64,000 nt of DNA from Bugula neritina (Eukaryota > Bryozoa > Gymnolaemata > Cheilostomatida > Bugulidae), in NCBI GenBank assembly GCA_964035545.1, contig OZ037767.1, forward strand, positions 16,115,498 to 16,179,497, given 5' to 3'. This document shows positions 14,147 to 61,240 of the stretch, piece after piece. Position numbers and translations under genes: made by a program. Below the pieces are notes generated by a model, which had not been told where the DNA came from, searched no databases, and saw only the letters and a list, made by a program, of their open reading frames with translations. Numbering within the stretch: position 1 is the first letter of the stretch; every line of letters begins with the position of its first letter.

Positions 14147-14491
14147 TGTAATGGGATTACGTAGTCTAATAATGGATTCGTCCCCTCCTGTATGGGAATA
14201 CTTATAACTATGTTCTACTATCCAATCAGAAGGACCGGAAGGCAAGGTTCCGGTCAAGTGACTGTTCGCGGGTTAGCTAGCAGAAACCATGTGTTGTTGA
14301 GAGCAGGGGCTCGTAGTAGTAACATGTGTTTATAATTGATTGATGTATTGTGGTTTTGATGTAATGTTATAATTATGTTTATCGAGTTAAATAAAGGTTA
14401 TCGTACGCAAGCTCTGTTAGTAGTTGCAAGTTAAATTGAAACTAAATACGCAGGCAATCCACGCTTGATAATTGTGCTAAAACTCACAACA
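14147..14491 (+). repeat. 5' LTR
   Basis: 345 bp, starts TGTAATGGG, ends CACAACA. Contains AATAAA near its 3' part (taaataaagg). Paired with 19107-19449. Confidence 0.92.
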
Positions 14492-14492
14492 G

Positions 14493-14510
14493 TGGTGGCA
14501 GCGGTGGGAT
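14493..14510 (+). promoter_or_regulatory. Primer binding site, tRNA-Leu type
   Basis: One base after the LTR comes TGGTGGCAGCGGTGGGAT, complementary to CCA plus the 3' end of animal tRNA-Leu (AAG/TAG), which ends ATCCCACCGCTGCCA. The same site is used by the 25-32 kb element. Confidence 0.85.
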
Positions 14511-14526
14511 CTTCGCGTATTTCAAG

Positions 14527-15456
14527 ATGACAGAAAGAGGCACAGAGCTACCCCTTCGGAGGAATGAAGGTGAGGAAGATAACAATGCTATACCTATAGA
14601 ACCAGAAGTGCGAGTATATAGGGAATGTTACGAAGAGAAGTACCGGCTGAGGGTACCCACCTTCTCAGGTGAAGAGCCGGTGGAGCAATTCGTTCAGGAA
14701 TTCCAAGATGTAATGGAAGTTGCACAATGGCCACCTAGAATAGCATTGCTCAAGCTCAGAATGGCGCTGTCAGACAAAGCCAAGCCATACGGAGTGGGAC
14801 CAGACATTGACGGCATCTTTGCTTCCCTGCGGGCCCGTTTTGGTATCTCCGCTGTAGATGCGCGGGCCCGTCTCCAAAGACTGCGGCGTGATCCTCACAC
14901 GCCGCTACAAGAGCACGCTACCACGGTAATGAGGCTGGTGCAGATCGCGTTCCGCGATCTGCCGCAAGTAAACCGTGAGAGGTATACCTATGATGCCTTC
15001 GTGCAGTCCATCAACGACTTGGGACTCTATCACCAACTCTTGGCGAGGGGAGTCACCACGGTTGAAGGTGCGCTGGCAGAAGGGGAGGCTTACCTCCTGG
15101 CCAGCCAGCTGCACCGGAGCCGTGTGACTTCTCGTCAGGTGGACATGGAGCCCTCCGCTGCTCCTACCGCTTCTCACGCGGAAACTCCAGCGGTAGCCAA
15201 GGTGACGCAGATGACGGTGGCATCACAGGTCGCACAAATGACCGACATGCTAGCCGAACTAGCCTCCGCCTTGGAAAGCCAGCTAGGCATCACCAGTGAG
15301 CTTGACGGGCCACCGGTGCAGTCGCCTGGTAGAGGACACCCCTCCTGCTGGGGGTGCGGAAGACCAGGACACTTCCAGAAACACTGTCCCCGACTTCAAC
15401 CAGGGTTAAACTACGACGGCCCGCGGATGCCCCCACATCCGGCGGGCAGCCGTTAA
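14527..15456 (+). CDS. Gypsy gag polyprotein
   Basis: 309 aa. The capsid-like region (YRLRVPTFSGEEPVEQFV... through RARFGISAVDARARLQRLRR) resembles Ty3/Gypsy Gag, and a CX2CX4HX4C zinc knuckle (CWGCGRPGHFQKHC) lies near the C terminus. It forms the particle and packages element RNA. The frame overlaps the protease frame at 15354-15456, so expression of the latter would need frameshifting. Alignment with the gag at 31378-32196 is clear through the capsid. The ATG follows the primer site by about 16 bp. The frame is complete. Confidence 0.9.
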   Translation: MTERGTELPLRRNEGEEDNNAIPIEPEVRVYRECYEEKYRLRVPTFSGEEPVEQFVQEFQDVMEVAQWPPRIALLKLRMALSDKAKPYGVGPDIDGIFASLRARFGISAVDARARLQRLRRDPHTPLQEHATTVMRLVQIAFRDLPQVNRERYTYDAFVQSINDLGLYHQLLARGVTTVEGALAEGEAYLLASQLHRSRVTSRQVDMEPSAAPTASHAETPAVAKVTQMTVASQVAQMTDMLAELASALESQLGITSELDGPPVQSPGRGHPSCWGCGRPGHFQKHCPRLQPGLNYDGPRMPPHPAGSR

Positions 15457-16310
15457 AACCCCAAGGGAGGACACAGTGGCGTCCGCCACGCCGGACACCC
15501 GTCCGGGACCTCGCGGAACGGCCACCAGGACGGCAAGCAGGCTGTACAAGCCGCTCGCCGCCGGTGTTCTCAATGCCACCCCGCAACAGGTTTGACAAAC
15601 AACGGACCGCAGAGTCTGCGAGGAAAGGTGCCCAAACGCCGCAAGGCGCGGCACCACCCCCTCGACAGCTGGTCCCGAGTCGTCGTCAAGCACCTAACCC
15701 CTCCGCCAAGGCGAGGGAGATGAGGTCACCCAAGATACCACTACATCCCCACGAGAGCAGCCTGTTTCTACTAGGACAGATAGCCGGCAAACCTGCCAGA
15801 TATCTGTTGGAAACGGGCTGTACCACCAACCTCCTGGGTCGTCGATTCTTTGACACACTCAGTGCTCCGATCCGAAGCAGGTTGGAACCGTATGAAGGCG
15901 ATCATGGCACCCTGGCAGACGGGTCGTGCATTCCCTTCTACGGTATCATTGAACTCCCTGGGAGCGTCTGTAACCAGACCATCCAGGAGAGGCTCATAGT
16001 AGGACAACTCCAGGAGGACGCCATCCTTGGGATGCCATTCTTACAACGACACGGATGTCGCATTGATTTTGGTAAATCTGCGATGATTATGGGCGGCAGG
16101 GAGCTCGCATGTGTCGATAAGTTTGGCCATCCCCTAACGGGAGAAGAGCCGGTAGTACGTACCTGTACTATGCCTGGCCACTCCCGGGGCACCGTCCACC
16201 GCAAGATAGACGGTGGCCGTACCTCCAAGCCGGGAGCTGTAGAGAGCGCGCACCCGAAAGTCCCACCTGTCCGCAGCTCTAACCAGCTGACACGGAAAGG
16301 AAAGACCTAG
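15354..16310 (+). CDS. Gypsy protease frame, active-site Asp replaced by Glu
   Basis: Open frame overlapping the end of gag. The retropepsin-like region spans roughly residues 130-260: LLETGCTTNLL, then EPYEGDHGTLADGS, then DAILGMPFLQRHGC. The paired element has LLDTGC, so the catalytic aspartate of the D(T/S)G motif is Glu here and proteolysis is doubtful. The ATG at 15354 lies inside gag and is probably not used; a frameshift from gag is the usual route. The frame ends at TAG 16308-16310, and the next frame continues in the same register from 16311. Confidence 0.8.
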   Translation: MRKTRTLPETLSPTSTRVKLRRPADAPTSGGQPLKPQGRTQWRPPRRTPVRDLAERPPGRQAGCTSRSPPVFSMPPRNRFDKQRTAESARKGAQTPQGAAPPPRQLVPSRRQAPNPSAKAREMRSPKIPLHPHESSLFLLGQIAGKPARYLLETGCTTNLLGRRFFDTLSAPIRSRLEPYEGDHGTLADGSCIPFYGIIELPGSVCNQTIQERLIVGQLQEDAILGMPFLQRHGCRIDFGKSAMIMGGRELACVDKFGHPLTGEEPVVRTCTMPGHSRGTVHRKIDGGRTSKPGAVESAHPKVPPVRSSNQLTRKGKT

Positions 16311-17768
16311 GTGCCATGCCTCCATTCCCCCTCAGAACCAGTGAGCCTACCACCCACCTTTCCACCAAGCTGTACTCCTTCTGTTCAAGAAGATAACAGC
16401 AGGCCATCGCGGGAAACCGCGATTAAAAGTCCTCTAGAGAACCCGCCCTTCGGGCGAAGGACTGCCTCACCCCACAGCCAGGAGACCCGTGGGAGAACAT
16501 CAGACGGTTGCGTGGATGACACACAGCGCCCAGAGACGGCCACGTCACTACACAAAACCGAGGCTACACTTCACCTTGGATATCCTGACATGCCCCCAGA
16601 AGTGGCACAGGACCCCCACGCCGAAGCCGTCTCAACCGATGGCGTCAAGGAGCTAGGACACCTCCAGGAACATATTCCGGGGGTGGTAGCCGACGTCTAT
16701 CGAATGAAACGGAAAGGGCGACGACCCAGTGACAGACAACGGAAGCAGGGCTGCGCTGAGTGGCAGCTGTACTGCCGACGTTGGAACGCACTGCGGATCG
16801 GGCCGGATGGTCTACTGACTATATCTTTGGCCGATAACCACCACCAGCCAGACCAGGAGAGGACCCTCTGTCCTGCCGCCATCCGCCAAGAGTTGATAGA
16901 AGAGGTACACCAACAAGCTCACGGGGGAGCCCAACAGGTGTTCACCGAACTACAACTCTGGTGGTATTGGCCTCACATGGAGCGTGACGTACGACGCAGA
17001 GTTGGGCAGTGCGGAGTCTGCCGGGTCAGTAAGCACGGCCCCCCTACTGACGAGGTAGGGCGGCGAAGGCAAAGTGCAGAAAGACCCGGGCAGACGGAGA
17101 CTGCTAACCTGGTCGACAAACCACCTAGGATGCAACCCAAAGCAGTGGCGAGGCAGGAAAAGCCACACCCGTTCAGGGAAGTGCGCTCACCGCCGTTAGC
17201 GTGCAAGCCGCCACCGCCACTTCCTAGGTCAGGAACCGACCTGGAAGTGCAAAAACCCCCCAAGGGAGGGGCTCCGTGCGGAGGTACTGGGAAAGCTCCA
17301 TTTGTCACAAATTGGCTGGAAGCACCACCTGTGAGACGTGACCGTCCACGGGTGCGTAAACCACCATGGCTGGAGACAACACTTCCCCAGGCTCCGAACG
17401 GAGATGCTAGGAAAGCTCCATTTGTCACAAACTGGCTGGAAGCACCACCCAAGAGACGTGACCGTCCACGGGTGCGTAAACCGCCTTGGTTAGTGACGAC
17501 ACCTTGGAAACGGTGTCCTAAGCCAGGCCCCGCGTATCGCAAGGACTTACCACGTCCCGTTCAGGGCGCGGTCAAACGTCCGTCGAGACGCCGTCAGGGG
17601 AAGAGAGCAGAGCGTGGGAGTTGTGAGCACCACGAAAATATCAACTTTTGCCTCGGCGGAAATTCAAATAAGATTCATACGCCGGAGGTAATAAATCATA
17701 GTCACGTTTCACAATCACGCTGCTCGCTCTTTCACCACATTAATACAGCTTTGAGTAGACGTAAGTAG
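16311..17768 (+). CDS. Integrase HHCC region fused to basic proline-rich repeats
   Basis: Continues in the same register after the TAG at 16308. Residues about 120-250 match the integrase upstream region and its HHCC zinc module (HQQAHGG... then CGVCRVSKHG) of the 27-29 kb element. Homology stops just after the position of the first catalytic aspartate block (DLVGP in the paired element, NLVDK here). RT, RNase H and the DDE core are deleted. What follows is new: a basic, proline-rich tail with a segment containing APFVTNWLEAPP and RRDRPRVRKPPW repeated twice about 120 bp apart (17290 and 17410). It cannot integrate DNA by itself. A nucleic-acid-binding role for the tail is only a guess. Confidence 0.75.
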   Translation: MPCLHSPSEPVSLPPTFPPSCTPSVQEDNSRPSRETAIKSPLENPPFGRRTASPHSQETRGRTSDGCVDDTQRPETATSLHKTEATLHLGYPDMPPEVAQDPHAEAVSTDGVKELGHLQEHIPGVVADVYRMKRKGRRPSDRQRKQGCAEWQLYCRRWNALRIGPDGLLTISLADNHHQPDQERTLCPAAIRQELIEEVHQQAHGGAQQVFTELQLWWYWPHMERDVRRRVGQCGVCRVSKHGPPTDEVGRRRQSAERPGQTETANLVDKPPRMQPKAVARQEKPHPFREVRSPPLACKPPPPLPRSGTDLEVQKPPKGGAPCGGTGKAPFVTNWLEAPPVRRDRPRVRKPPWLETTLPQAPNGDARKAPFVTNWLEAPPKRRDRPRVRKPPWLVTTPWKRCPKPGPAYRKDLPRPVQGAVKRPSRRRQGKRAERGSCEHHENINFCLGGNSNKIHTPEVINHSHVSQSRCSLFHHINTALSRRK

Positions 17769-27215: not shown

Positions 27216-29735
27216 CTACGCATCAGCCGCCCCGTCCTGGTCTGGCAGTATCTCCTCGATCTCTCGATACGCCATGGGTCGCCCCCTCATAGGAGGGCGC
27301 CTAGCTGGCTCTAAGAGAGGAGGTGCTTGACCTGCCGCATCAGGACTTGCCCAGTGAGGTTTCAGCCGTGCCTCGTTCTGGATCGACACTTGTCCAGACC
27401 GTTCCACTTTGTATGTATGGTTTGGCATTACCTCAATTACGCAGTAGGGACCTACGAACTTCGGCTGCAACTTGGCTGCCTGTCCGCGCCTGCGGCGATG
27501 ACTGGTCATCCAGACCCAGTCCCCCACCTTGTATAAAGGTGGGTCGTCAGAGTCACTACTCCTGACCTGCCACTGCTGCTCACGTAGCACCTCGTGAGCC
27601 GTCCCCATGCGTTTTACGAGCTTGTCCACGTAGTCGTGGACATTGCTCTCGGGAGCCGGAACGTGATAGGTTACGTGCTCAGGAACCCTTGTTTCTCTCT
27701 CCAGCATGAGAAAATTAGGGGTCTCCAGTGTACTGGAGTGAGGGGTACTACGGTATGCTCGCATGATCTGCGGCAACACCAAGTCCCACTCTTCCTGGCT
27801 CCTACCGATAAGCAGGCTTCTCAGAGAGTCCCCTAGCATTCGGTTGTTCTGCTCCACAACCCCGTTCCCTTGCGGGTGATACGGGGTCGTCCGACTCTGG
27901 TTTACCCCCCACACTTTACAGAGATCGCTCATAAGTTGCGACTGAAACTGGGCGCCTTGGTCAGAGTGTATCTGCTCCGGCAAGCCGAAATAGCAGAACA
28001 CCTGCTGATCCAAGGCTCTGGCCACCGAGGGGGCCGACGCATCTGGAATAGCCAGTGCATCAGCCCACCGCGTGAAATGGTCAGTTAATACCAGTATCCA
28101 GTTATTACCTCTCGCTGTTGTGGGCATGGGGCCTACCAGATCGACAGCAACCACCTGCCACGGACGACCGGCATGGAGGCGACGCCTCCCTGCGGTCTCA
28201 GTGGGGCGGCCATGCTTGCTAGCTTGGCACACCTCGCACTTCCGCACCCTGAGTCGGACATCCCGGGTCATACCAGGCCAAAACCACTGGAGTTGAAGAC
28301 ACCTGATCACCCGGCTAGCTCCTGCGTGAGCTTGCTTATGGGTGTCCCAGATCAACTTCCGCCTCAGAGCTGACGGGCAGACTACCCTCTCTCGTTCACT
28401 GCGATTGGTGCCGGCTGCCAACGTGATCGTTAGCAGCCCATCGCTGTTGAACCTGAGGGAGTCCCAGCGGTCACAGAAGTACTTAAACTCAGTACTCTTC
28501 ACTCGCTGTTCGGCCTCACTCGGCCGCCGTCCCTCCTTCTTGGCCCGGACTAGGTCAGCTACCACTCCTGGTAGCGTAGACTGGAGCCGACATAGCTCCC
28601 TGACGTTCCGAAGCAACGTGGGGTTTGCGTGAAGGTTGTTAACAGCTTTGTTGGGCGATTCGGACAGGAGTTGCCCTTCTTCCCAGCTGTACACACCCGC
28701 TTTCCCCAACTGCGCTTCGACGTCCGAGCGAGGGGGTCCACCATCCCTGCGCTCGATATTCTGGCATTGCTTACACCCATCTGCCTGGCGGCGGCTGAGT
28801 CCATCTGCATTACCGGGTCGATGCTCGATCCGATAAGAAAACTCTGCCAGGATCTCTAGCCAGCGCGCCACTTGGCTTGATGGTTCTGCCCGTCGACACA
28901 GCCATATCAGGGACGCATGATCCGTCCGAAGCCGGAATGTGCGCCCATATAGATATGGTCTAAAGTGTTTGACCGCCTTGACTACTGCCAAGAGTTCCCT
29001 CCTGGTTGTACAGTAGTTCTTCTCAGGCGCCGACAGGGCCTTGCTATAGTAAGCCACCACCACCTCTCGACCATCTTGGACTTGCGACAGCACAGCCCCC
29101 ACATTATGGTTACTGGCATCAGTATCCAAAATGTACTCCTTCGCAGGGTCAGGATGCGCCAAGATGGGTGCTTCCACCAGGCGATCCTTCAGGTGGTCAA
29201 ATGCCTTCTGCTCAGCCTGCGTCCACTGCCATCGCACCCCCTTTGCGGTCAGCCGATTTAACGGCTGTGCAATTCCGGCGAAGTCTGGTATGTACTGACG
29301 ATAGTACCCTACCAGTCCCAGGAACGCCCGCAATTCAGAGAGGTCGACAGGAACGGCCCAGTCCCTCACAGCCCGTACCTTCTCGGGGTTGGTGGCGACC
29401 CCGTCTCGACCAACTACATGGCCCAGGTACTTGACCTCGCGTTGCAGTAATGCACACTTCGAGGGCTTTAGCCTCAGGCTAGCAGCTCGAAGTCTGTCCA
29501 ACACCTCCCTGAGTCGACTGACATGTGTGTCGAAGTCGGGGGAGATGACGATGACATCATCGAGATAGATGAGCAAGGTCTTCCAGTGCAGTCCACTCAG
29601 GACCTGCTCCATGAGTCGCTGGAAGGTGGCTGGTGCGGATGTAAGTCCGAATGGCAACACCTTCCATTTCCAGAGCACATCCCGCGTTATAAACGCGGCC
29701 TTGTCCTGTGCTTCAGGACTCAGGGGCACCTGCCA
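27216..29735 (-). pseudogene. Gypsy pol: RT catalytic part, RNase H, integrase
   Basis: About 840 codons, in the same register as the preceding frame but separated from it by TAA at 29736-29738. It contains RT motifs (LPFGLTSAPATFQRLM, YLDDVIV), RNase H (DTDASNHNVGAVLSQ), an integrase HHCC module (HKQAHAG... CEVCQASKHG), the DDE core (VDLVGP..., HSDQG, then E in NGVVEQNNRML) and a GPY/F-like module (FVGPYCVIEV). All catalytic residues I can see are present. The stop just before the frame would truncate translation within RT. Cytoplasmic particle and nuclear integration functions are known for the family. Confidence 0.88.
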
Positions 29736-31061
29736 TTACCCGCTTAGCAAGTCCAACGTGCTGAAGAACTTGCTACCAGCTAAGGCATCGAGCGACTCAT
29801 CGATCCTCGGGAGAGGGTAAGCGTCCTGGATGGTCACGCTGTTCAGCCTGCAATAGTCAACGCAAAACCTCCAGCTACCATCCTTTTTCCGAACCAGGAC
29901 GACTGGAGAACTCCAGGCCCCATGGCCTGGCTCAATCAGGTCCCGGTTCAGAAGGTCTTGCACCTGACGGCTCACTTCTCTCTCTTTCTCAGGACCTAAC
30001 CGGCGGGTCGGCTGCCGAATCGGCGCCGTCCCCGCCGCCAGGGGTATCTCATGACAGACAGTCTTAGTCAGACCCATGTCATGGTCGCCGCAACTAAACA
30101 CGTCCTTGTACTCAGAGAGTAGCCGCGCCATCACCAGGCGTTCTCGCTTGCTCCCACAGCCATCACAGGCATCCTCGTACAACTCTGCTACGTGTTCAGG
30201 CACCGGCCCCCTGCCGTCTCTAGTGGGTACTCCCCGGGCGTCGTCCGCTGTTTCCAGCGCGGGCCCTACATCCTCCTCTTGCACGGAGTGGAACTTCCCT
30301 ACTAGAGACCCAGCCGGTAATTCTACCGGCTCCGTGAAAGGGTTTACGCACTGGACCAGGAACTCACCCCGCTCATCCAGTCTATTCAGACTGTTAGCGA
30401 GCTGGACGCCCCCCAGTGCACCTTCCACCACTCCGAGCTCGGAGATTTCCCTACAGTTCACTCTGCAGCGAACTGTAGCCCGGGAGCGCCCAGGTACAGT
30501 ACAGCGCTGTACCACCTGCACTCCCCCCACCAAGGGTCGGCCAAATCGGTCGACACAGGCCAGCTCACGCCCCGCCATCACTACTGCCGACTTGCTAAAG
30601 TCTATGTAGCACCTGTGTCGTTTCAGAAATGGCATGCCCAAGATGGCATCCTCCTTGAGTTGACTGACGATGAAGGTCTCACTGATCATCTGATCACGGA
30701 CTCTACCAGTCAACTGGATTACCCCATAGAAAGGAATACACGACCCGTCCGCCAACGTGCCGTGCTCCCCTTCATATGGTTCTAGGCTAGCCCTGTCCTT
30801 GGCACTGAGAGTGTCGAAGAGACGTCGACTCAGTAGAATTGTGGTGCACCCAGTATCCAACAGGAATGTGGCAGCTTTATCAGCAATTTTGCCGGGGAGG
30901 AAATAGCTGCTTCCATATGGCTGAGCGCTCACTGAGCGATTTGTCTCTTGAGGCGACACCTCATGTGCATGGAGTTGGGGATGCACCTGTGCTTTTCGGT
31001 TGCGAGGGGGTCGTCGACGTTGCATGGGCGGGCAGGGTACGTCTCGGTCTCGCTCACACAC
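29736..31061 (-). pseudogene. Gypsy protease and N-terminal RT
   Basis: Protease motif LLDTGCTTILL with HGTLADGS and DAILGMPFLKRH, followed by the RT start (WSSPVVLVRKKDGSWRFCVD, then PLPRIDESLDAL). The frame ends at TAA 29736-29738, at the place where the family normally has an aromatic residue in the conserved block after LDL. One substitution explains the stop. Compared with the element at 14147, the protease aspartate is intact here. Confidence 0.88.
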
Positions 31062-31377
31062 GGGCGGCCGAGTGAATTCTCAGACTGATGCTCGTGTGGG
31101 CAACCGAGGAAAATCCCTGTTGTGCTCCGATTCGTCGTTCACTCCCTCATCAAGCAAACCTTCAAAGCGGTTTTTGAGTGCCCAAGCCGGAGGTATTGGT
31201 GGGCCTTGCGGCCGACTCACTCTCCTTGGGGCTTGCCACTCTGGCGAAGGCGGCCTCCTCACCCGGTGGGGTGGGGGCCGTAGCCTCTGCCTTGGGGGGT
31301 TAAACTGGGGCCCACGGTAGGCGGAAGTTACCGTGGGCCGTCGCTGTTTAACCGCCTCCCACTGCCGCGGGGGCAAC

Positions 31378-32196
31378 TTAGAGGAAGTGCCCACCACTAC
31401 CACAGCCCCAGCATACAGGGCCGCGCCTGTCGTCGACAGCTACCGACGACCTCTTGGGTCTCTCGGCTGTCGCCTGCTGGCGCAGTTGCCTGATCTCGGC
31501 TAGCAGTTCTCGAATCAAGCTCGTGGTTGAGCTAGATTCGTCTGCTGCTGCCGCTGCGACCTGTACATCTGTCTTCGCTGGCGACGTCGACACGTCGTCT
31601 GCCCCGACCTGCTGTACTGTCGCACCAGGTCGACTTGCACTGTCCGCTTGGAAATAGGCATTCCCAAGCCTTAGAGCTCTCTCCATAGTCTCAACTTCGG
31701 CCACCAGCAGATGCTGTTTCAGACCGAGGTTGTTAATAGACTGGAGGAATGCATCCAGTGCTAGGCTCTGTCGACTGTCGGCAGGCAAGTCACTGTAAGC
31801 AACTTGTGCCAGTCGTTCGACTACGGTAGCGTGCTCTCGCAGATTGGTCTTAGGATTTCTCCTAAAACTCTGCAGTTGCACGCGAGCATCTCGAGCGGTT
31901 AATCCAAACCTAGCTCGTAGTGCTTCAAATATGTCACCAACATTCTGGCTTATCCCATAGGGTTTAGCCGGCCCTGTCAGACACAACCGCAGCTGGATCA
32001 GAGTAACCCTGTTCGGCCATCCGCAGATGTCCGCCACATCACTAAACTCAGTGATGAATTGCTCCACATCTTCTTCTCCTGAGAAGATGGGAGCCCGCAA
32101 GTGGTACCTGTCCATAGGCAGCGCTGGGCCGCTTATGTGATCCTCCTCTATTGCTGCTGGCTCCTGTCGGGGCGCGTCGACGACTTCGTCGGCCAT
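31378..32196 (-). pseudogene. Gypsy gag, frame lost in the zinc knuckle
   Basis: 272 codons. The capsid region (YHLRAPIFSGEEDVEQFI through LRARFGLTARDARVQL) aligns with the gag at 14527. It ends at CWGCGSGGHFL and a stop, before the last cysteine of the CCHC knuckle. The relic at 63.4 kb reads on through GHLLRSC, and comparison suggests a 1-nt deletion here. The downstream linker is open in another register at 31080-31403. Confidence 0.82.
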
Positions 32197-32231
32197 CTTA
32201 CTCCCTGGCTAGGGGCATTCGTATTAAGTGG

Positions 32232-36500: not shown

Positions 36501-39500
36501 ATTAACTGGCCATTAAAGCATTATCATTCTGTGTGCAGGTAGCAGTAGTAATTCATCACATGTAAGCCTAGGGCTACACGGTGCGTATTTTCGCATGCGA
36601 AAGTTGAAATCACAAGTAGCAAAGGTGTCCACTGTACGCGTTGAGAAAACATTCGCACTTGTCGCTCAGCATTCTCAACGCAAGTGCGAATCGTCTCTGT
36701 CGTCGTCACTTAATTGGCTGGTAGTTATTCAGCAGCCCAATTTCTTTATTTTAGTGCTACATTCCAGTACATTGCGTTTTATTAAAAGCGAGTGCGATTT
36801 AAAAATGAAAGCTTCATTTATCACGCACCACTGACGCTACAGTGGACACCTTTGCTACTTGTGATTTAATTTTCGCATGCGAAAATACGCACCGTGTGGC
36901 CCTAGGCTTACTCAGTGCAGAGGAACCTGCATGTCAATACAGATGACTCAATCATCCTTCTGCAACTGTCAATCAATCACTCAGAGAGAGGTTGGCTGTG
37001 TGAGTGATTGACAGGTGTCAGCAGGAGGAGACTAGTCACGTGATTTACTAGCCCTCTGCTGTGTATAATGAAGTGTCACATGACTGAGTCATTGTATTCT
37101 TAGTGGGTGGTTTGTCACTTTCATTTCAAGTGTAGAGGTTGTGAGGTTCAGAGGTGGTTATCCTGTGTTACTATTTATTAGATAGAAAAGATTAGAAAGA
37201 GAGCTACAAACCTGAGGCTAGAAATATATGGATATTTGAAGAGCTGCACACAGATAGTGGATAATTATAGAATAGAGCTGGCCTTGAGTAAGACAATGGA
37301 CAGACAGTCTCTGCTGGACACAGTACAACATGCAGTTGATAAGTTCAATGATGCAGGGATTGTGAGAGACTACAAAGAGATGAGTGGGAAGATGGAAAAG
37401 GCTACAGATCTTGGTGTAATAGAGAAGTGTGTACTTCCAGACAGCATCTTGGTACCAACATGTAGGTGGAGTCTATAAATAGTAACACCAACTATAAATA
37501 ACTTTCTGCTTGTAATCAGTTAAATTGCTTTCATTGAATATTTAAATAGGAGAATAAAGAGAAGCCTCTGATAATTCGAAAAGTTGATGGAATTTATTTA
37601 TTAGAGAATTGAGTTTTGTTCTACTTTCACATTATGAGACATCTCTGCAGTGTTTCAGAGTTTATGATGTATGAGTGAGTTGCTAAAGTGTGTTATGCTG
37701 ACTACGTGCTGTAGGTATTACCAAAATATTCTCACTTAGACCTGTGCATTACGCAGCAACTTGTAGTAACTACAGACTGCTTGTATTTAAAATATCTTTT
37801 CATTTCAAGTTTGAAAAGCTGTTCCCCACCTCCTCAGGTGATGAGATTCTCAAGTTATAGAATTGTTCTTTTGTTGTTGCAGACAGTGAAGACAGTCTGG
37901 GACTGAAGCTGCTGCAGCCACCATCTTTTCTACAGTTTGATGGACTTCCTGTACGTGGAACGTGTTACACAGTAAACATCTCAGCTGATGGACATGTGTT
38001 GTGTCGGATACCAGTAGGTGTAGAAATAAGAAATAGAGACTCTCTGAATACTATAATCAGCTCGGTGAAGGACACCGACACTACAGAGTGGAGGGAGATA
38101 ATCCAACCTGAAGGGGTGATGGTTGGCAGCTGGTATAACAAAAAGGAGAAAACAGCTGAAGTCTCACTTCTTGATCCGAACTCCTTCAAAAAGTCTCGCT
38201 CTGTCTACAAGCTGTCAGTAGATGTACCCTTTTACTGTAGAATTGCTCAGCACCACTCACTGCTCTATATTGTAGACAGGAGAGAGATTCAGCTGGTAGT
38301 CTGTAATCTAGTTGACAATAAAATACAGAACTTCCCACTTCCTGAGATAGATTACCCTGTACCTGTATGCATCCTCCCAGACTCAACTCTCCTCATAGGA
38401 GACTTTGCTGAAGATGGTAAAGTGAGAAGGTATAAAGCGGAGAACACAACTCTCACTCTAATGTGGGAGTTCCCTCACATCTCATATCCATCTGGTATTT
38501 CCTTTGATCCAACATCTGAACTGATTCACATCTGTACATGGAGAGGACCTCTCCTCATCTTCTCACTTGAAGGTAAATACTGTGTTTATTATAGTAAGGT
38601 TAGTTATTTTATATATAATTATGCTGTAGTAAATAATATATTTTATTAATTAACAGTAAACAAATGCTACTCATAAGATATAATATCGTTAGTATTTATC
38701 AAGTCAGTGATGTTACTTTTAGCTAAAAGTTATGTAATAAAGACTGTAACATGCTGATAGTAGATGTTACATTCTTCATCACATGACTTGTAGCTAATAA
38801 TATTATTAGTGAATAATATTGTCTCCCTACAATAAGTTTATTTCCAGCTGCAGTAACATGCAGGATGTAAGCACAGGTAAAAGTGTATATTATACTGTAT
38901 AGGTTTAAGGTGTACTCTGTGTAGTGTGCAGTGAGCTCTTAGTAAACTCTCTATGTGATAATGGTGGAGTAGCTGCAGTAGTAGTTAGAAATAGACTTGC
39001 ATGTGAGTGTGTTCTTGCTAAAGACCGCAGGCTAAGTTTGTGGGTCAAGGTCAATACATTAGTATAATGAGACACTATTTTCTGCTCTGTTTGAATATTT
39101 ACTCCATGCATATAACCTGCTTAGCTCTATCTTTAGAGGAAGTCTGTCTGTTTCTCTTAAAGAATTCCTGACACACTTTACTTATATAGCATGAAAATAT
39201 TCATCTATGTCTTAGCTATCATTTTAATACTCTTTTGGGGTTTCAGGTCTAAACAATTTTGTTTTATAACAGTTTTAGTGCATGCATGTCCAAAAAACTT
39301 CGAGAATTGTTTTCGCCCTTCTGTGACGTATTACACCGCAGTTGCGAGAAATAGATGGAAACGCCGCCTGTAAGACATTCGGAAAATAAGTATAGGCTAT
39401 ATTTTCCGTTGCATGTAACCTTAGTTTTAGCATTTTTAATTTATCGGACGTCTGTCTAGCCCCCAATTAGTGTTTTTTTGTGGAATTTAGGTTTTATTTC

Positions 39501-42500
39501 ATAAACAAATTTCGCGGCAATAAAATATACATAGCTACCAACTTACCGTGTCCGAGTCTGTGCAGTGTAATTGTGATAAAGATAAACCTAATACAGAAAT
39601 AACATAAATACGATATCAATATGAACATATCTGGCTCTGACGAAGAATACTTAGAGCACAGTGAGAATCGCAATGAGTATGACTATGACAATCACACTCA
39701 CGCTGTCACTGAGATTTCTGAAGTAATGGGCTATCAGTTTGAGCCGTTTACGTATCAAGATGAAAATGGAGATGATAGTCATGACAAGGATTTTACTGTT
39801 ACTGATGAGCAACAGGTGATAATATTTATAATTTTACAGTATCAGTACGATTTAATTTTATAAACTATAGTGTTACTAATACCGTAATACTTATACTAAT
39901 ACTAATAGTAATACTTTAACTTTAAGTTATAAGTATAAGCTAGTATAACTATAAGTTATAAATTATTATAATTATAATATTTCATTTTCATTTTGTAATT
40001 GTAAATCCAATGCTCAATGCCAATGCTCGTATTGATCCTGGCTTAATTAGTTAATATAGCTGAGTTTTGTGCTACTAAAGCTTTAGAGCAAGCATGATAT
40101 CAAATTACAAGCTAAATATTTGATGATTGCTATCGGTTTATATAATATTATTAATAATAAAGTGATAATCATTAAATTTAATGATTACAAATTCCAGTCA
40201 AGTAATTAAATATTTGATCAATACTAATTTTGTTATTACTACTACCAATACAGGTATTAGTATTAATTATTTGTAGTTAGATTTACCTGATAATTTAAGT
40301 CAAGGGAAAGACTGTATTTTTATAAATGCATAATAATGATAATTATTATTCACTTTTATTGTAATTGTGGTTATACCGATCCTTAACAAAATAAGTTAAT
40401 CACATACATAATCATGTCAAACTTGCATTCACGATGATAGCATTTAGTATTTTATTTCTAAGCCCCCTATTTCTCTGAATTTCTGCTTTTATAGTATAAC
40501 ATATAGTACTAACAACAATAAAATGTTTTAAAATTTCTGAAAATTAGTTTATTTCATAGCAAAAATTATGAGTTTGTTTTAATATAAAAAATCTAATTAA
40601 TTTTCAACTATAAATATAAAAATAGTTTGAACAGTAATGCAAACTTGGAATATTTTAAAACCCATGATTTTAAAGTATTTTCAAACTTCAGCCTCATTGG
40701 ACTCAATTTTCAATACAAAGAAAAATACAGGAAACAAATTTAGACACAGTAATTCATGGACTTAATGTGGATGATACTGGTAATAACGTTTTTAGAAAAG
40801 CTTGTTTGTTTTGTAGAAAAATATAAGGCCAGCCACGGAGTGGTGCACTTGCCACCGCTGCCAAAATCAGCCTACAGTGGAACAGTCTGTTTGTTGCCGT
40901 GATCATGCTGCAAACCTTCGATTAGATAGCAGCATGGAATGTATAACACAGCACCCGGGAGTACAGCAATTGACGCAACCAGCTGTATTAGAAGTTGCAT
41001 ACAGCGGCTACCTGAGATATCATGGTTAGTCAATTGCTACTGTAGATCAGTAACTGTCATTGTTAGTTTTTCTAGATAGTCTTACTTGATTATTTAGCCA
41101 ATCATTTATTTTGGTAGATGATTTGTTTGATGAGAAGGCCCATTCTCTCAACACTAAAAAAAGGTTCTGCAGCTACCGGTTTTTGGTGTTCTGGCTGTTT
41201 CCAGATATTAAAAAAGGTGAGAGACGCCCTCTACCAGCTTGCTTATATGATTGGGTGCAAGCTACATTCCTCCCAACTGGTGATGAGGAAGAATTTGCTG
41301 AATGGATGTTCAGCAAATTCGTGTACAATGAAGATTTATGAACATTAACACTCTGGTGATTTTTAGTAGCAGTCAGTTGCTACTGCCTCTTGTAGTGTGT
41401 ACAGCTTACTATGAGAATAAACCTCATTATTTGCAATCTCCCTGACCTTTGAAATTAATTTACCGTTGAGTTTGAGTTGCAATAATGGTGAATATACTTC
41501 AATATGGTGACTATTTTTGCGCTGAACTTTTCAAGTGACTCTAAGATCATATTCTACAATGCTTGAATTTTGATTCAACAAATAGAATTTACTTCACTAC
41601 TTAGTTATGTAGAGCAATCAGGTATTGCAATATTCCTAGTACACTAGAATATCTAATGCAATGTAATATAATATAATATAACAATATTGTTTTTATGAAA
41701 CTTTGTGACATAGTATAACTTTTTACATATTTTTACCAATATATTGTTTTATTTATTGCTATTTATTGTTTTCACATTGCTATTTATGGCTCTAATAAAG
41801 TACCAACAAAACCAAACATGCAGCTGCTCTACAGTGAAAACGAATATTTACATTTCAATGGAAACTGAGACTACAAGTAGATATATTGTCCAAATTTATT
41901 TTTGACACACCTTGAGGTGGAAAATTAAAAATAGTATTTCCATTACACAAAAATATTTGTTTTTTTTTTGTTGCATTAGAACATGCATTTTAAATAAAAA
42001 TAAATATGGAGAAAAGCTATGAATTCAGTTTTTGAGCTAAGTGAACAATACTATTTCGCCATATTTCTATATACCAGCATTGAACAGCTTTGCTTCTAAT
42101 CTTTTTCTGCATCCTTTTAGGTGTTTGTACATATTTATTGTGTCCTATTCCTTTCTGTAGGCCCTTCTTTTCTGGCTTAAGATTGAGAGCTGGTTTTTTA
42201 GTTTGACTTGGCAAAGGTCTAAAATATTATTATATATGAAGGTAAATGGAAAAGTATTATTGAAACAGCTGCAGAAAATCTCAATTGCTGTCTATATCAT
42301 ATTTCAATTTTATTGCTCAAGATCGCATTTTCAATATTATAATCCTTACAGAAAACCAGGGTCTGATCTTTTTAACCAGCGAGCTTCTTTAGGTGTGATA
42401 GTGGCCGCCTGCTGACTTTGTTTCCGAGGAGTTAATGGAGTGCATCCAGTTGCACCCTCAGTTTCCACTAAATGAATAGTTGGGACTGCTGTTTTCTCTA

Positions 42501-44184
42501 AATGCAATCTAAAGAGTAAATCAAAGACAATGAATTTTTATTCTTTCAATAAGCTAAGTGAACAATATTTACCATTAATTTTTACTGGTATTGATGATGG
42601 GCACCATTACCAGTATCATACTCATAGCATGAGTATCAGTGCGTATGAATCATAATATTAATGGTATGTATCCAAGTGACTATGACACATTCTGATAATC
42701 ATAAGTCTTTCATATTATCGCCATTATAAATGAATTTCCTTACAATAATGGTTATCGTGTAAATCATAAATGCAAACTTGTACTTGCAAGTTTATGTCAT
42801 AGTCACATGAAATTGAATCAACACGGTCATGACAATCCTATTGACTTATACCAACTTGTAGTAATACTTAATAGTTATAGCTATACTTATTGTTGAAAAT
42901 CAACATTAAAAAAACTATCATTATCGTCTAATTTTATCACAATCACTAAGTCAGTATCACTATGAGTTTGAGTGAGTTATTCACTTACATGTTAATGAGT
43001 TTTGCTTTATACCTGCCCATATTTGTAAATTGTTCATCACCAAAATGCTGAAAACACAAACGAGAGTTGTTATCAGGCAGAAAGTTTTTTCTTTTCGTAT
43101 TGACAAACTTGGTCCATTTTTCACCACACACACTCACAGTATCAGCAGGCCATTTAAACATGGGTTTTTCCTTGTACGAACACATTGCAGCTTCACACAC
43201 TCTTCTTTTGCATTTGCCTTTAGAACTTGAAGCCATTCGTGTAGTCATGTCGACAGTAAGTGCAAGTGTAACTAGTAATATAGGTAATAAGTTTGTTCAT
43301 TAGAGTCCAATGGCAATATGAATATGAAATCGAATTTATATAGATAGCGAGCGACTACTACTAGTAGTAGTGTAGTAGTAGTACTACTAGGCACAGGTTA
43401 TATTGGTAATATCCGGTTACGGTAATGATAATCTATTTGGAAGCGTAATAAGTTACATAATTGAATATGCAATTATTTGTAATGTTTTATAGAAAAGTTT
43501 GCCACTCGTTGGATTTAGCTAATTTCTTTTAACAATATCGTGTTATCACCGTACTTAGCCACCCGTTCTAATTACATCGTGAGGGTGAGGCTATTTCATT
43601 TTTCCGATGTTCAAAATTTCTAACGGAAGTAACTTTAGCTTCTAATATCAATAATAAAATGGTATCATTTGTTTTTTTCATTGAGCATTAGTTGTACTCT
43701 GTGTTTTAAAATTTATGTCAGTATAGTGATTTATCTGTGTGTTGCAGTGGCTAAAAATAACACGCTGCGAAAGTATGCAATTATTACTATTAGTTATATA
43801 GTAACTAGGACTCGAAGCAGACCGGAAACCGGTGTAATACGTGTGCACTGAGAGCTTAGAAATCCGAAAGTTTTTTGGACATGCATGCACTAAAGTTGTT
43901 ATAAAATGAAATAGTATAGCCATCCACCCTTAAAGGGATGCTTAATTGATAGCTAAGATATAGATGAATATTTTCATGCTATATAAGTAAAGTGTGTCAG
44001 GGATTCTTTAATACACACCAACTGATACAATATGATGCTATTATTTACAGGTCAACTGGTGCTTACAGTTCCCAGAGAAAGTCTTGGTGTGAGTGGCTGG
44101 GTGCTGGACATTGCTGTGTATAACAGAGACACAGTGTTTCTAGCAAGTGGAGACGGACTGAGGAGATGCACAATAAAATACTAA
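33564..44184 (+). CDS. TRIM-like RING/B-box/coiled-coil/beta-propeller protein (620 aa)
   Basis: Seven exons in phase: 33564-33745, 34352-34532, 34730-34919, 36186-36391, 37182-37461, 37883-38572, 44051-44184 (1863 nt). A RING finger occupies residues 17-60 (C17, C20, C35, H37, C40, C43, C57, C60). B-box 1 (CDVCKDG...CVDSQKRLCQQH) is in exon 2, B-box 2 (CEHHKQE...CSKCHQIFCMRC) in exon 3, and coiled-coil helices in exons 4-5. An NHL-like propeller region follows (ILPDSTLLIGDF, then FPHISYPSGISFD). Family members are E3 ubiquitin ligases, some of them RNA-binding or translational regulators; the target here is unknown. Intron 4 contains a MITE and intron 6 a 4.85 kb transposon. The ATG follows ataaccaag. 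AATAAA lies near 44477. The reading frame is intact. Confidence 0.88.
34920..36185 (+). other. TRIM-like intron 3, no further feature
   Basis: 1.27 kb intron between exons 3 and 4. No repeat or exon recognised. Confidence 0.5.
36565..36908. mobile_element. 344-bp MITE with TA flanks in TRIM-like intron 4
   Basis: Inverted ends AGCCTAGGGCTACACGGTGC... of about 75 bp, including a TTTTCGCATGCGAAA palindrome, are flanked by TA on both sides. The inner part has a further inverted pair (cgcacttg / caagtgcg). No coding capacity. TA duplication suggests a Tc1/mariner-type origin, but termini alone do not settle the superfamily. Confidence 0.75.
39161..39345. repeat. Left terminal inverted repeat
   Basis: Pairs with about 43800-44007, with mismatches and small indels. 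Confidence 0.75.
39621..41341 (+). CDS. P2X7 C-terminal (ballast) domain-like protein, 208 aa
   Basis: Exons 39621-39815, 40817-41024 and 41118-41341, all in phase (627 nt). An acidic N-terminal 65 residues includes YQFEPF. The rest matches the zinc-coordinating cysteine domain of the mammalian P2X7 receptor tail: WC-T-CHRC (C75, C77, C80), VCCRDH (C91, C92), ECITQHPG (C107), FCSYRFLVFW (C152) and LPACLYDW (C176), then a TF motif. No transmembrane segments or P2X channel core are present, so it is not a receptor. Stand-alone domains of this kind occur in invertebrates. It lies inside the TTAA element, convergent with the THAP gene. Role unknown; zinc binding is likely. Confidence 0.8.
42017..43248 (-). 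CDS. Small THAP-domain protein, 206 aa
   Basis: Minus-strand exons 43248-42989, 42508-42350 and 42218-42017, in phase (621 nt). THAP signature: C18-X4-C23, P34, W45, then C65FQH68F, and AVPTI at the domain end in exon 2. THAP domains are C2CH zinc-dependent DNA-binding modules, often found in transposases (P element, Kolobok) or domesticated from them. The remainder is lysine-rich (KKPALNLKPEKKG, QKKIRSKAV) and ends WYIEIWRN...KLNS. No DDE catalytic region is seen. In this element it is a candidate terminal-repeat-binding protein, which is inference. Confidence 0.82.
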
Positions 44185-46020: not shown

Positions 46021-46182
46021 TACCTGGTAAGTCCAGGGTCTCTGTGTCTTCATCTCGATGCACATGAACCCTTCGGTCTCGTTCCTCGAATAAACTTAGA
46101 CATGTCAATACCTCTGCCAAAGTCTATCAGCTTTATGCTGGATGAGGAGAACGGCTTTTCGGGAAAAACTTCGGGACTACAC

Positions 46183-46622
46183 GGGGTAGAGTATACAGTG
46201 TAGAGTATACAGAGTAGAGTATACAGAGTAGAGTATACAGTGTATACAGAGTGTATACAGTGTGTATACAGTGTGTACAGAGTGTACAGAGTGTACAGAG
46301 TGTACAGAGTGTACAGAGTGTACAGAGTGTACAGAGTGTACAGAGTGTACAGAGTGTACAGAGTGTACAGAGTGTACAGAGTGTACAGAGTGTACAGAGT
46401 GTACAGAGTGTACAGAGTGTACAGAGTGTACAGAGTGTACAGAGTGTACAGAGTGTACAGAGTGTACAGAGTGTACAGAGTGTACAGAGTGTACAGAGTA
46501 GAGTATACAGAGTAGAGTATACAGAGTATACAGAGTAGAGTATACAGAGTAGAGTATACAGAGTAGAGTATACAGAGTAGAGTATACAGAGTAGAGTATA
46601 CAGAGTAGAGTATACAGAGTAT
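46183..46622. repeat. 9-bp (gtgtacaga) minisatellite with flanking 14-bp units
   Basis: About 25 copies of gtgtacaga (46270-46498) flanked by gtagagtatacaga units fill the kinase intron. All long frames across it on both strands are repeat artefacts. Confidence 0.95.
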
Positions 46623-47140
46623 AACGACACTTACAACCCACAGAAGAGGATGTTGTCTGGCTTGATGTCTCCATGAATTATCTTACAGCGATGCATGACC
46701 TCTACAGCATGCAGTAGCTCGATGGTGACGTACATGACTAACGACTCCGGCATCTGTAAACAGTAGACGTAGACATGACTGAGCAGTGAGCAAAGTACAG
46801 TGCAACTCATGAACTGAACAGCCAATGAGAATACAGACACACGCCAAACAGCCAATAAGAACGCAGCTTACTTTACAAGAGTTGGCCTTCATGCCGTTGA
46901 CGAGGTTGAGAAGAGAGCCGAGGGGCACCAGTTCGTTGACCATGAGGGATCCGTCGGAGAAGAAGACGGAGTGGGTGATGTCCATCAGCTTGCTGCCGAT
47001 ATCTCTCTCGATGTCTTCGTCCATGTAGAATACTCGCTGCCGCAACTCCTTGCAGATGTACAGCTCCCACGGGCAGCTCGGCTTCTGTGCCTTCACACAC
47101 ACATCGTCACTCTCGGAGTAAGCCTGGAGACTTTACCTGC

Positions 47141-58505: not shown

Positions 58506-60503
58506 ATGGCAGAATCCAGAGTTGTGAAAAAAAGACTAAACAACTCGTATCGCTGTGGGTACTGCTCACAGTACTTCAACAAACTTGAAGACCCCAGAAC
58601 TCTGCCCTGTCTGCATGTGTACTGCATGCGATGTTTGAAGACTGACATCGGTGGTAGGAAGGATCATATTAGATGTGCCTATTGTAGGTGAGTTACAGTA
58701 CATAACACAATATATCATGTCATAGGCTTGCATATGATTTTCTCACTATCATCTAGGAGTTGTCTGATCTGTGTCTATGGAAAGCTAACAATACTGTATA
58801 TTCTATGTGAACTCTGGTTAAAAACTTGTGGATAATGAATGTATTTTTGCTAATTATTTAAATCCAATTTAAATGCTCTCACTTTTTGTACCTTCTACCC
58901 TCTATAATTTTATATAATAGAGTTTTGTTAATCATTGTAATTGAAGTCAAAGTTTTGGCATCTGAAAAAGTGTCTATTATTAAGTACTTTGCTTAGTAAT
59001 TAACAATAAGTTCTCACTTTTATTAGCAGACAAAGTTTTAGCGAACAGTCTTTTTCTACTTCGCAGATATATCTGGTGTCTTTTCATGGATCGATCGATC
59101 TCAGACAGTGATTGTGTAATAGCCTGTGGTCTATATAATGAATGTGTGTTGATGAGTGATGAGTATCTATTTGAGTATTTGTCAAGGACATAGCTGTGTG
59201 TGTGGATGGAGTATTTCATTACTTGTCACATCATATTATATTAGACTTCCTGGTATAGTAAACAGAGATAACACACTGATTAATATATTGTAGGAAAGAT
59301 CACTATGACATAACAGACCCCACTACTCTACCTGTCGCAAAGCATGGAGATCCCTTGGAATATAAATCTCCACCCAAACCTGCACCCATGCCTTGCGATG
59401 TTTGTAAAGATGGAACGGAAGCTGCCACGTTCTGTGTAGAGAGTCAAAAGAAGTTGTGTCAGCAGCATCAACAAGTGAGTCTTTCTTATATCATTCCTCA
59501 AGATTGGTTACTAAACCAGTTCTGGTTTGTGTGTAGAATATTATTGAAAAGAAATGTTGAGTCTGTGTGACTTTTTATACTAAACACGCAATTTCACAGT
59601 GCAGTGAGTCAACAATGACAGACTTGTTGGTGAAAATACAACCAACTAAACTGTTGACCTTTATTATACAGAATCACAGAGTAAAAGTGTAGATTATATT
59701 GTATAGGTTTAAGGTGTACTCTGTGTAGTGTGCAGTGAGCTCTTAGTAAACTTTCCATTCAGTCTTCTATTTCAAGGGTTCACGTGGTAGTGTAGAGGAT
59801 AGGGACTCCACACTGCCAAGTGCTGCAAGGGGTTCAAACCCACCCATCAGCATGTATACTTAGTATACTATGGAAGTGTTTTACAGTAATTTTAGAGGTG
59901 CTCAACCTAACAACTGTACAAACTGCCAGCTACACATAAGTTGAGTTGTAGTTTGACTTCAGTCTAGTGCTATATTGTTTGGGTCATCAGATAATTTAAA
60001 GATAAATAGTTTGAGACTTTTTGTCTACCATTACTGAGACTATTGTAACTTGATGATGGCTGGTAAAGTAGTGTTTGCTGGTGGGACTCATGTGGCTGTC
60101 GTTGGTTCTTGTCAAGTATTTAATATGTGATAATGTTGGAGTAGCTGCACTAGTATTAGAAATAGACATGTGGGTGTGTTCTTGCTAAAAGCCACAGGCT
60201 AAGTTTGTGGGTCAAGGTCAATACAGTAGTATAATGAGACACTATTTTCTGCTCTGTTTGAATATTTACTTCATGCATATAACCTGCTTAGTTGCATCTT
60301 TACAGGAAGTCTGTCTGTTTCTCTCAATGCACACCAACTGATACAATATGATGTTATTATTTACAGGTAAACTGGTGCTTACAGTTCCCAGTGAAAGTTT
60401 TGGTGTGAGTAGTGACTGGGTGTGGGACATTGCTGTGTATAACAGAGACACAGTGTTTCTAGCATGTGATGGTAGTCTGAGGAGATACACAATAAAATAC
60501 TAA
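58506..60503 (+). pseudogene. Second TRIM-like copy with middle exons deleted
   Basis: Exons 58506-58687 (RING) and 59294-59474 (B-box 1) are almost identical to the first copy and intact. At 59672 only 10 nt of exon 3 remain before the sequence jumps to what is intron 6 in the first copy (38878 on), so B-box 2, the coiled coil and the propeller exon are deleted. Reading on from exon 2 reaches TAG after six codons (about 127 aa). The last exon 60367-60503 survives with one extra codon but is out of phase with exon 2. It could still make a RING/B-box-1 fragment. Confidence 0.85.
59757..60124 (+). mobile_element. tRNA-derived SINE insertion, about 370 bp
   Basis: Present in this TRIM-like copy and absent at 38940-38955 in the first copy, where aaactctc runs directly into tatgtgata. 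The 5' part has box A-like gtggtagtgtagagg and box B ggttcaaaccc at 59782-59850. The flanking duplication is not clear. Confidence 0.65.
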
Positions 60504-61240
60504 ACTTATCAGCTACAGTTTACTAATAATCAGCTCAGTGAGGTACTGAGAGATAAAATGGATAATATTTGTCATCAACATAATTATATTCATTACAATT
60601 CAATACACACACTCATGATAGTGTCAGGTATATTATATTGTGTGTGCCATTTAGGCTGTAATTATACTTCAGTATATTCAACAGAACTTTCACTGCTTAT
60701 ATGCATTATTATATAGTAATTGTCATGAATTGTAGTTATTTAAGATATTTGACTGTATAAAATATGTGTTGCTATTTTACTATCTAATAAAGTTTATTTG
60801 TTAGTGAGAAGATAATATTCCGTTTTCATGCCTCATTAGCTTTAATTCAAGTTGAGTTTGGTTACTAAAAAATAATCTTCACTGGAGCAGTAACTGTAAA
60901 TGACTCCTCTGTGGGAGAATGCATTCACTGAATTGACATGCAGGTGCAAGTAACTCCAACATGACTGTAGGCAAGTTTTTCCAAACATATATAAAATACA
61001 TTCCACTGCTGTGTACACAACAGCATTGAGGAGCCAATCAAATTGTTTCTTGTCATGCATTCAGGAAGCTGATAAATAATATATAAGGCAGTCAACTAGA
61101 TATAAACACTTTGGTACTCTACACATGAGCTGTCTGTAATGCAGTCGCTTTGTAAAATGTGTGTCATTTGAAAAGTTTAGCTAATTGGTTGCAGTTTAAT
61201 TATGATGTGTTGCCCCATTCACCTGGTAGAAATACTATGT
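60504..61240 (+). other. 3' flank of the TRIM-like copy
   Basis: Counterpart of 44185-44930, with AATAAA near 60785. No separate gene. Confidence 0.65.

Follow-up and report, generated by a model that had tools for sequence, protein, structure and literature searches.

A probable internally deleted Kol0-type Kolobok transposon of Bugula neritina that keeps KolX and THAP exons

We analysed a stretch of 64,000 nucleotides from the bryozoan Bugula neritina (assembly GCA_964035545.1, contig OZ037767.1, positions 16,115,498 to 16,179,497; hereafter the window), in which a 4,847 bp element at positions 39161-44007 is flanked by TTAA and bounded by inverted ends. This element is very probably a non-autonomous, internally deleted Kol0-type Kolobok DNA transposon, whose parent had two convergent genes, i.e. 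one for KolX, which is reported to be the second protein encoded by Kol0 Kolobok elements and to resemble the P2X7 ballast (PMC9587614), and one for a THAP-DDE transposase. As such it is an ordinary kind of element and well supported; what is uncommon is that the core was repeatedly lost while both other coding parts were kept in young copies. New, as judged from the aligned sequences, are at least five incompatible central deletions that cut out the DDE core while sparing the THAP exons and KolX, the latter slightly trimmed in one case.

Ends, target site and copies in the genome

TTAA was read directly on both sides of the element, as an earlier note made from the sequence alone had reported, at 39157..39160 on the left, where two-ended copies and an empty paralogous site point to the same target-site duplication, and at 44008..44011 on the right, where two-ended copies again agree. 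The terminal inverted repeats, delimited by a repeat finder and by comparison of ends, lie at 39161..39300 (plus strand, 5' start AGAATTCC) and 43868..44007 (minus strand, 5' start on that strand AGAATCCC), and are 84 % identical over 140 bp. The same note had given inverted ends of about 185 bp; their presence is borne out, while a length near this is reached only across copies, i.e. as an inverted match of 178-181 bp (~80-82 %) between the right end of the window copy and the left end of most other copies. When joined, the flanks of the element align at 91 % identity to window positions 60124-60917, with TCAA at 60324..60327 and no insert, which locates the near-empty site noted near 60325. 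Since this paralogous stretch is empty, the simplest reading is that the insertion postdates the duplication of the flanking gene. A search of the window against Rfam at gathering scores gave no match.

Both ends recur in the 215.8-Mb genome with at least 41 matches each, these counts being lower bounds since only the best 40 of 291 (left) and 40 of 219 (right) candidates were scored. We examined 26 two-ended copies including that of the window (L017-L036, L037/L038, L039/L040 and L041-L044), as well as 11 stretches with a single end (L045-L050 and L054-L058). All 26 two-ended copies read TTAA|AGAA...TTCT|TTAA, and thus carry both the 5'-RR...YY-3' termini of Kolobok elements, here AG...CT, and their 4-bp TTAA target-site duplication, the latter further supported by the empty TCAA site. 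The absence of other copies with the same ends and TTAA had been named beforehand as fatal to the proposal of a TTAA element; such copies are plentiful. Among the single ends, TTAA was seen at the right place in eight of nine, the exception being L057 (L047 and L049 fall outside this count). Five of these stretches (L054-L058), whose ends were found by pattern, were rejected as copies because they show end similarity only, and their first 700 bases have no inverted partner within 9.7 kb.

Twenty copies (L017-L036) could be aligned, with a mean identity of 98.2 % and a minimum of 95.1 %. Two of them, L022 and L023, share 4,540 bp without a difference, and no BLAST similarity links their 300-bp flanks; another three (L025-L027) are mutually 99.93-99.98 % identical. 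The identity of the former despite unrelated flanks and the near-identity of the latter indicate recent movement.

Coding parts of the window copy

The element holds two convergent, open three-exon genes, as the earlier note had described, with predicted splices giving proteins of 208 aa on the plus strand and 206 aa on the minus strand. The plus-strand gene, KolX, starts with an ATG in exon 1 (39621..39815), which ends in a GT donor and is open when spliced, continues in exon 2 (40817..41024, predicted AG/GT borders), which contains the cysteine clusters WCTCHRC, VCC and ECIT, and reaches its stop in exon 3 (41118..41341, predicted splice) with FCSYR and LPACLYD; both introns are of the GT/AG type. 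Because the P2RX7_C domain is split by an intron, the spliced proteins were used for profile searches. Spliced KolX matches Pfam P2RX7_C with an E-value of 9.8e-13 and 48.9 bits (cut-off 23.5), a single unspliced exon staying below the cut-off at 17.2 bits, and the clusters follow in order, so that the P2X7-ballast cysteines expected of a Kol0 KolX, and claimed for this gene from the letters as those of the cytoplasmic zinc domain of P2X7, are present. Structural comparison also includes exon 3, with KolX residues 68-188 weakly matching residues 470-584 of P2X7 chain 6u9v (E 0.013) in an alignment of the ballast that does not superpose all cysteine clusters. P2RX7_C was the sole Pfam match of the 208-aa protein, no P2X channel domain being found. 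Applied to the whole genome, the same profile gave three matches, each below the cut-off, and a comparison with 5.8 billion proteins returned one match for KolX among 24 candidates (68 % identity over 38 % of the query). On contig C6, positions 12940873-12946174 (L051-L053) hold a tandem array of six matches resembling KolX exon 3, spaced by about 1 kb, possibly tandem elements or co-opted genes.

The minus-strand gene consists of exon 1 (42989..43248), which bears the C2CH signature, matches both Pfam and the THAP1 structure and is read as a 5' exon of the transposase, exon 2 (42350..42508) with an AVPTIHL box, and exon 3 (42017..42218) to the stop, which shows 85-97 % amino-acid identity in other copies. 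The predicted 206-aa protein is open and matches Pfam THAP with an E-value of 1.6e-6 and 29.2 bits (cut-off 23.9), the match reaching residue 99 and thus exon 2, while a single unspliced exon stays below the cut-off at 22.4 bits; it also matches the THAP1 structure 2ko0 (E 2.8e-4). The C2CH pattern is complete, as had been stated, and the P, W and F residues as well as the AVPTIHL box of the THAP family were recognised by eye. Among 65 candidates from the same 5.8 billion proteins there was one match, from Bugula neritina (85 % identity over 19 % of the query). An annotated protein of this species, EB796_012895, is identical to the THAP exon of the window at 33 of its 37 N-terminal residues. 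A host protein of the window gave 42 hits, none of them from that record, and the THAP match may reflect a related organism, horizontal transfer or contamination.

Loss of the transposase core

The window copy itself contains no DDE transposase with a C/DxxH motif and is therefore non-autonomous, which agrees with the earlier reading of a non-autonomous, Kolobok-type TTAA element. At 41603..41609, a junction with a 7-bp overlap marks the place where ~2.55 kb including DDE exons is missing in comparison with L024, a copy of 7,419 bp with the same ends. On the strand of the THAP gene, this extra segment of L024 encodes an acidic stretch followed by CNVCGGEA, LTTDRH, FDTWHI, NHMYW and TSELESFH. 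A sister locus on contig C6 (5893690-5900770; L059, L060 and L063) has a THAP exon (27.4 bits, cut-off 23.9) and, on the same strand, a match to the Mutator-like transposase PF20700 (34.8 bits, cut-off 26.5) as well as GDGRCDSPGH, LTTDRH, FDTWHI and TSELEAFH, with KolX exons on the opposite strand; the full D, D, DxxH, E set of motifs was seen only here. Since DDE exons lie on the same strand in L024 and L059, the THAP gene of the window most likely represents the 5' portion of a gene for a THAP-DDE transposase, as far as can be read from the predicted exons, and the alternative of a two-component element, raised in the earlier note, is not upheld.

The middle of the element was lost in more than one way. 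Expressed in coordinates of L024, the two-ended copies show deletions of 2474-5030 (class A; seven of the 20 aligned copies, plus L037/L038), 2423-5270 (class B; seven copies) and, in one copy each, 2294-4877 (class C), 2265-4687 together with 4906-5171 (class D), 2614-5114 (class E), 2167-4621 (class F) and 2228-5088 (class G); L039 has an F-like deletion of 2201-4634. Every class from A to G lacks 3130-4037, where the DDE motifs reside, and all keep the THAP exons. Only in class F is the end of KolX (stop near 2204) not intact, roughly a dozen of its final codons being deleted. Both coding parts are kept to this extent in 21 of the 26 two-ended copies, i.e. 19 of L017-L036, L037/L038 and L039/L040; the remainder comprise the long L024 and L041-L044, which lost most of both. 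Because A, C, D, E and F each retain sequence that others lack, at least five independent deletions are required by the breakpoints alone, while classes B and G could be secondary.

According to this reconstruction, the parent would have carried KolX on the plus strand, convergent with a multi-exon THAP-DDE transposase gene on the minus strand, from which a central deletion would have removed the DDE exons and spared KolX together with the 5' transposase exons. Translated as far as the stop in exon 3, the transposase remnant would yield a 206-aa THAP-only protein, which, if made, may bind the ends of the element and could damp transposition in the manner of the KP protein of P elements. The copies would move by cut-and-paste in trans through a full-length transposase, KolX probably being an accessory protein of Kol0 transposition, and the deletions may stem from incomplete repair of excision gaps.

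Several observations weigh against this reconstruction. L024 has the second-D, DTWH and E motifs and lacks the first-D exon, and its DDE exons match Pfam only below threshold, with MULE at 18.0 bits (cut-off 27.6). Published descriptions (PMC9587614, PMC6004289) guided the reading of the DDE motifs by eye, the joining of their exons is predicted, and the splice that would link the DDE exons to THAP exon 3 is putative. No complete transposase of the window family, and with it no source of the activity, was found in the assembly. The end of the C6 sister locus reads TTAA|AC, a misfit to the 5'-RR rule, and has no significant likeness to the window ends (best E 0.15). Class A does not form a single clade when the 20 copies are placed in a tree, where L024 and the members of classes B-G fall among A copies; this implies recombination between copies or a history more involved than a single deletion in each lineage. 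Finally, the repressor activity that the THAP-only protein could have is drawn purely from analogy.

A genome search with the C-terminal DDE exon gave eight matches; within the family it is whole only in L024, the others being pieces with stops at C5:7800592-7800877 and more distant relatives. The first-D exon of the sister locus gave three matches, none at a known locus of the window family. Three long copies considered as autonomous, L037/L038 (12.3 kb), L039/L040 (12.6 kb) and L041 (8.0 kb), were rejected since no DDE exon of the family was found in them; their length is due to nested frames that by eye resemble Ty3/Gypsy gag-pol. Similar Ty3/Gypsy-like retrotransposon frames were seen by eye at window positions 14446-17768 and 27216-32208. 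The right-hand region of the C6 sister locus occurs at 79-85 % identity in at least 39 other places (best 40 of 120 candidates scored), several of them 2-4 kb from KolX exon-3 matches, and a second, larger non-autonomous family related to this locus seems to exist. Elsewhere in the window, long open frames at 5376-6169 and 46050-46682 consist of short tandem repeats and are unlikely to be genes.

Competing explanations and relation to known systems

The earlier note suggested that stand-alone P2X7-ballast domains may spread as transposon cargo. On a cargo reading, a TTAA element would have captured unrelated P2X7-like and THAP genes of the host and spread them. The window copy viewed by itself, in which both short genes are intact and the DDE core is missing, fits this idea; however, the same layout of KolX and THAP accompanied by DDE motifs at the sister locus, together with the DDE exons that L024 has at the very point of the deletion, largely refute it, and KolX counts as a regular protein of Kol0 elements (PMC9587614). 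We therefore consider captured host genes very unlikely. An element of the piggyBac type with a KolX-like gene is extremely improbable. TTAA duplication is a piggyBac trait too, and some piggyBac families carry a C-terminal relative of KolX (PMC9587614), but the termini here are 5'-AG...CT-3', the KolX cysteines, which piggyBac versions reportedly lack for the most part (PMC9587614), are present, and those exons of relatives that match a transposase do so with Mutator-like profiles or, weakly, with MULE and ISL3. Pfam searches with the two spliced proteins and with eight exons from relatives gave no match to a piggyBac profile.

Another question is whether deletion derivatives were kept or amplified because KolX and the THAP-only protein help in cis, so that retention of both was selected. 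In favour of this, the five or more incompatible deletions spare the THAP exons and KolX (bar about a dozen codons in L033); if deletions were placed uniformly on L024, itself without one exon, all five would fall between the two genes with a probability of 7e-5. Moreover, both seven-copy classes are among the copies that keep the two parts, and L041-L044 are each single. With both genes pooled and non-synonymous changes compared with synonymous plus non-coding ones, the 20 copies show a non-synonymous deficit, both for singletons (56 on 998 sites against 0.0904 per site, p 4e-4) and for shared changes (12 on 998 sites against 0.0272 per site, p 0.0045), although the non-coding columns may carry alignment noise that favours this result. 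The signal resides in the six copies outside classes A and B (p 6.5e-4 and 0.036), and constraint is not significant within class A (p 0.11 for singletons, 0.33 for shared changes) or class B (p 1 and 0.45); KolX singletons alone show no constraint, with a ratio of 1.01. No significant selection on the two pooled genes was found after the deletions. KolX is open in 12 of the 20 copies, including L020 with a broken donor, and the THAP gene in 11, but only in six are both genes open and all splice sites sound. Many short matches to KolX exon 3, the majority with an in-frame stop, are also repeated in other parts of the genome where no intact gene accompanies them. If excision gaps are filled incompletely from the two ends, the middle is lost in any case, and since this yields central deletions without selection, it is the likelier cause. 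We regard help in cis as an unlikely account of the retained parts. KolX is under strong constraint in the sister family, where DDE motifs or matches persist (dN 0.025 and dS 0.37, i.e. non-synonymous and synonymous divergence, for exons 2 and 3 of the C6 and C5 genes).

Returning to the deleted Kol0 element, its likeness to Kolobok-1_XT and other Kol0 elements (PMC9587614) covers the TTAA site, 5'-RR...YY-3' termini, the zinc cysteines of KolX and DDE transposase motifs in relatives, whereas the window copy has no DDE core and the two-ended copies of this assembly are all deletion copies, most with KolX and THAP exons. Xenopus XKol (PMC6004289) shares the AG termini, TTAA and a transposase THAP domain with C2CH, the PWF residues and an AVPTIF-type box; that work, in the sections consulted, concerns transposase genes and their domestication, and THAP-only derivatives were not found there. 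No publication on such Kolobok derivatives was found in the literature searched, literature outside it not being covered. Small non-autonomous P-element copies can be a source of repressors, an example being the KP protein of 207 aa, and a truncated 66-kDa P protein retains the THAP domain and represses (PMC7776569). Internal deletion and a short protein are common to both systems, KP with its 207 aa being set against 206 aa predicted here, but the P element belongs to another superfamily with another target site, repression has been demonstrated for it only, and the Bugula element has KolX as a second gene. It is tempting to speculate that KolX and the THAP-only protein form a two-gene module with a regulatory or assisting role in transposition, equivalent in Kolobok to the KP system and with KolX as partner, which we regard as improbable; if true, free-standing KolX and THAP modules would lend themselves naturally to co-option by hosts.

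The zinc-coordinating cysteine domain P2RX7_C is shared with P2X7 and nanor (PMC7016195), from which the window protein differs in having no P2X channel domain and in being encoded by a transposon gene. The same paper, in which the term 'transpos' does not occur, reports an Ixodes protein with the P2X7 ballast domain behind an N-terminal domain printed 'TAHP'. A bearing on the origin of the P2X7 tail had been suggested for this element; the link through KolX stands, while its novelty does not, as P2X7 was already proposed in 2022 to have arisen by fusion with KolX (PMC9587614). The element supports, in another genome, this published view of the P2X7 tail domain as the Kolobok protein KolX, and in addition it shows KolX still present, once the catalytic core is lost, in young copies that moved recently. 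The consulted parts of the cited papers hold no statement on the role of KolX in transposition, and the identical copies, together with the several deletion classes, provide a usable system for asking what that role is.

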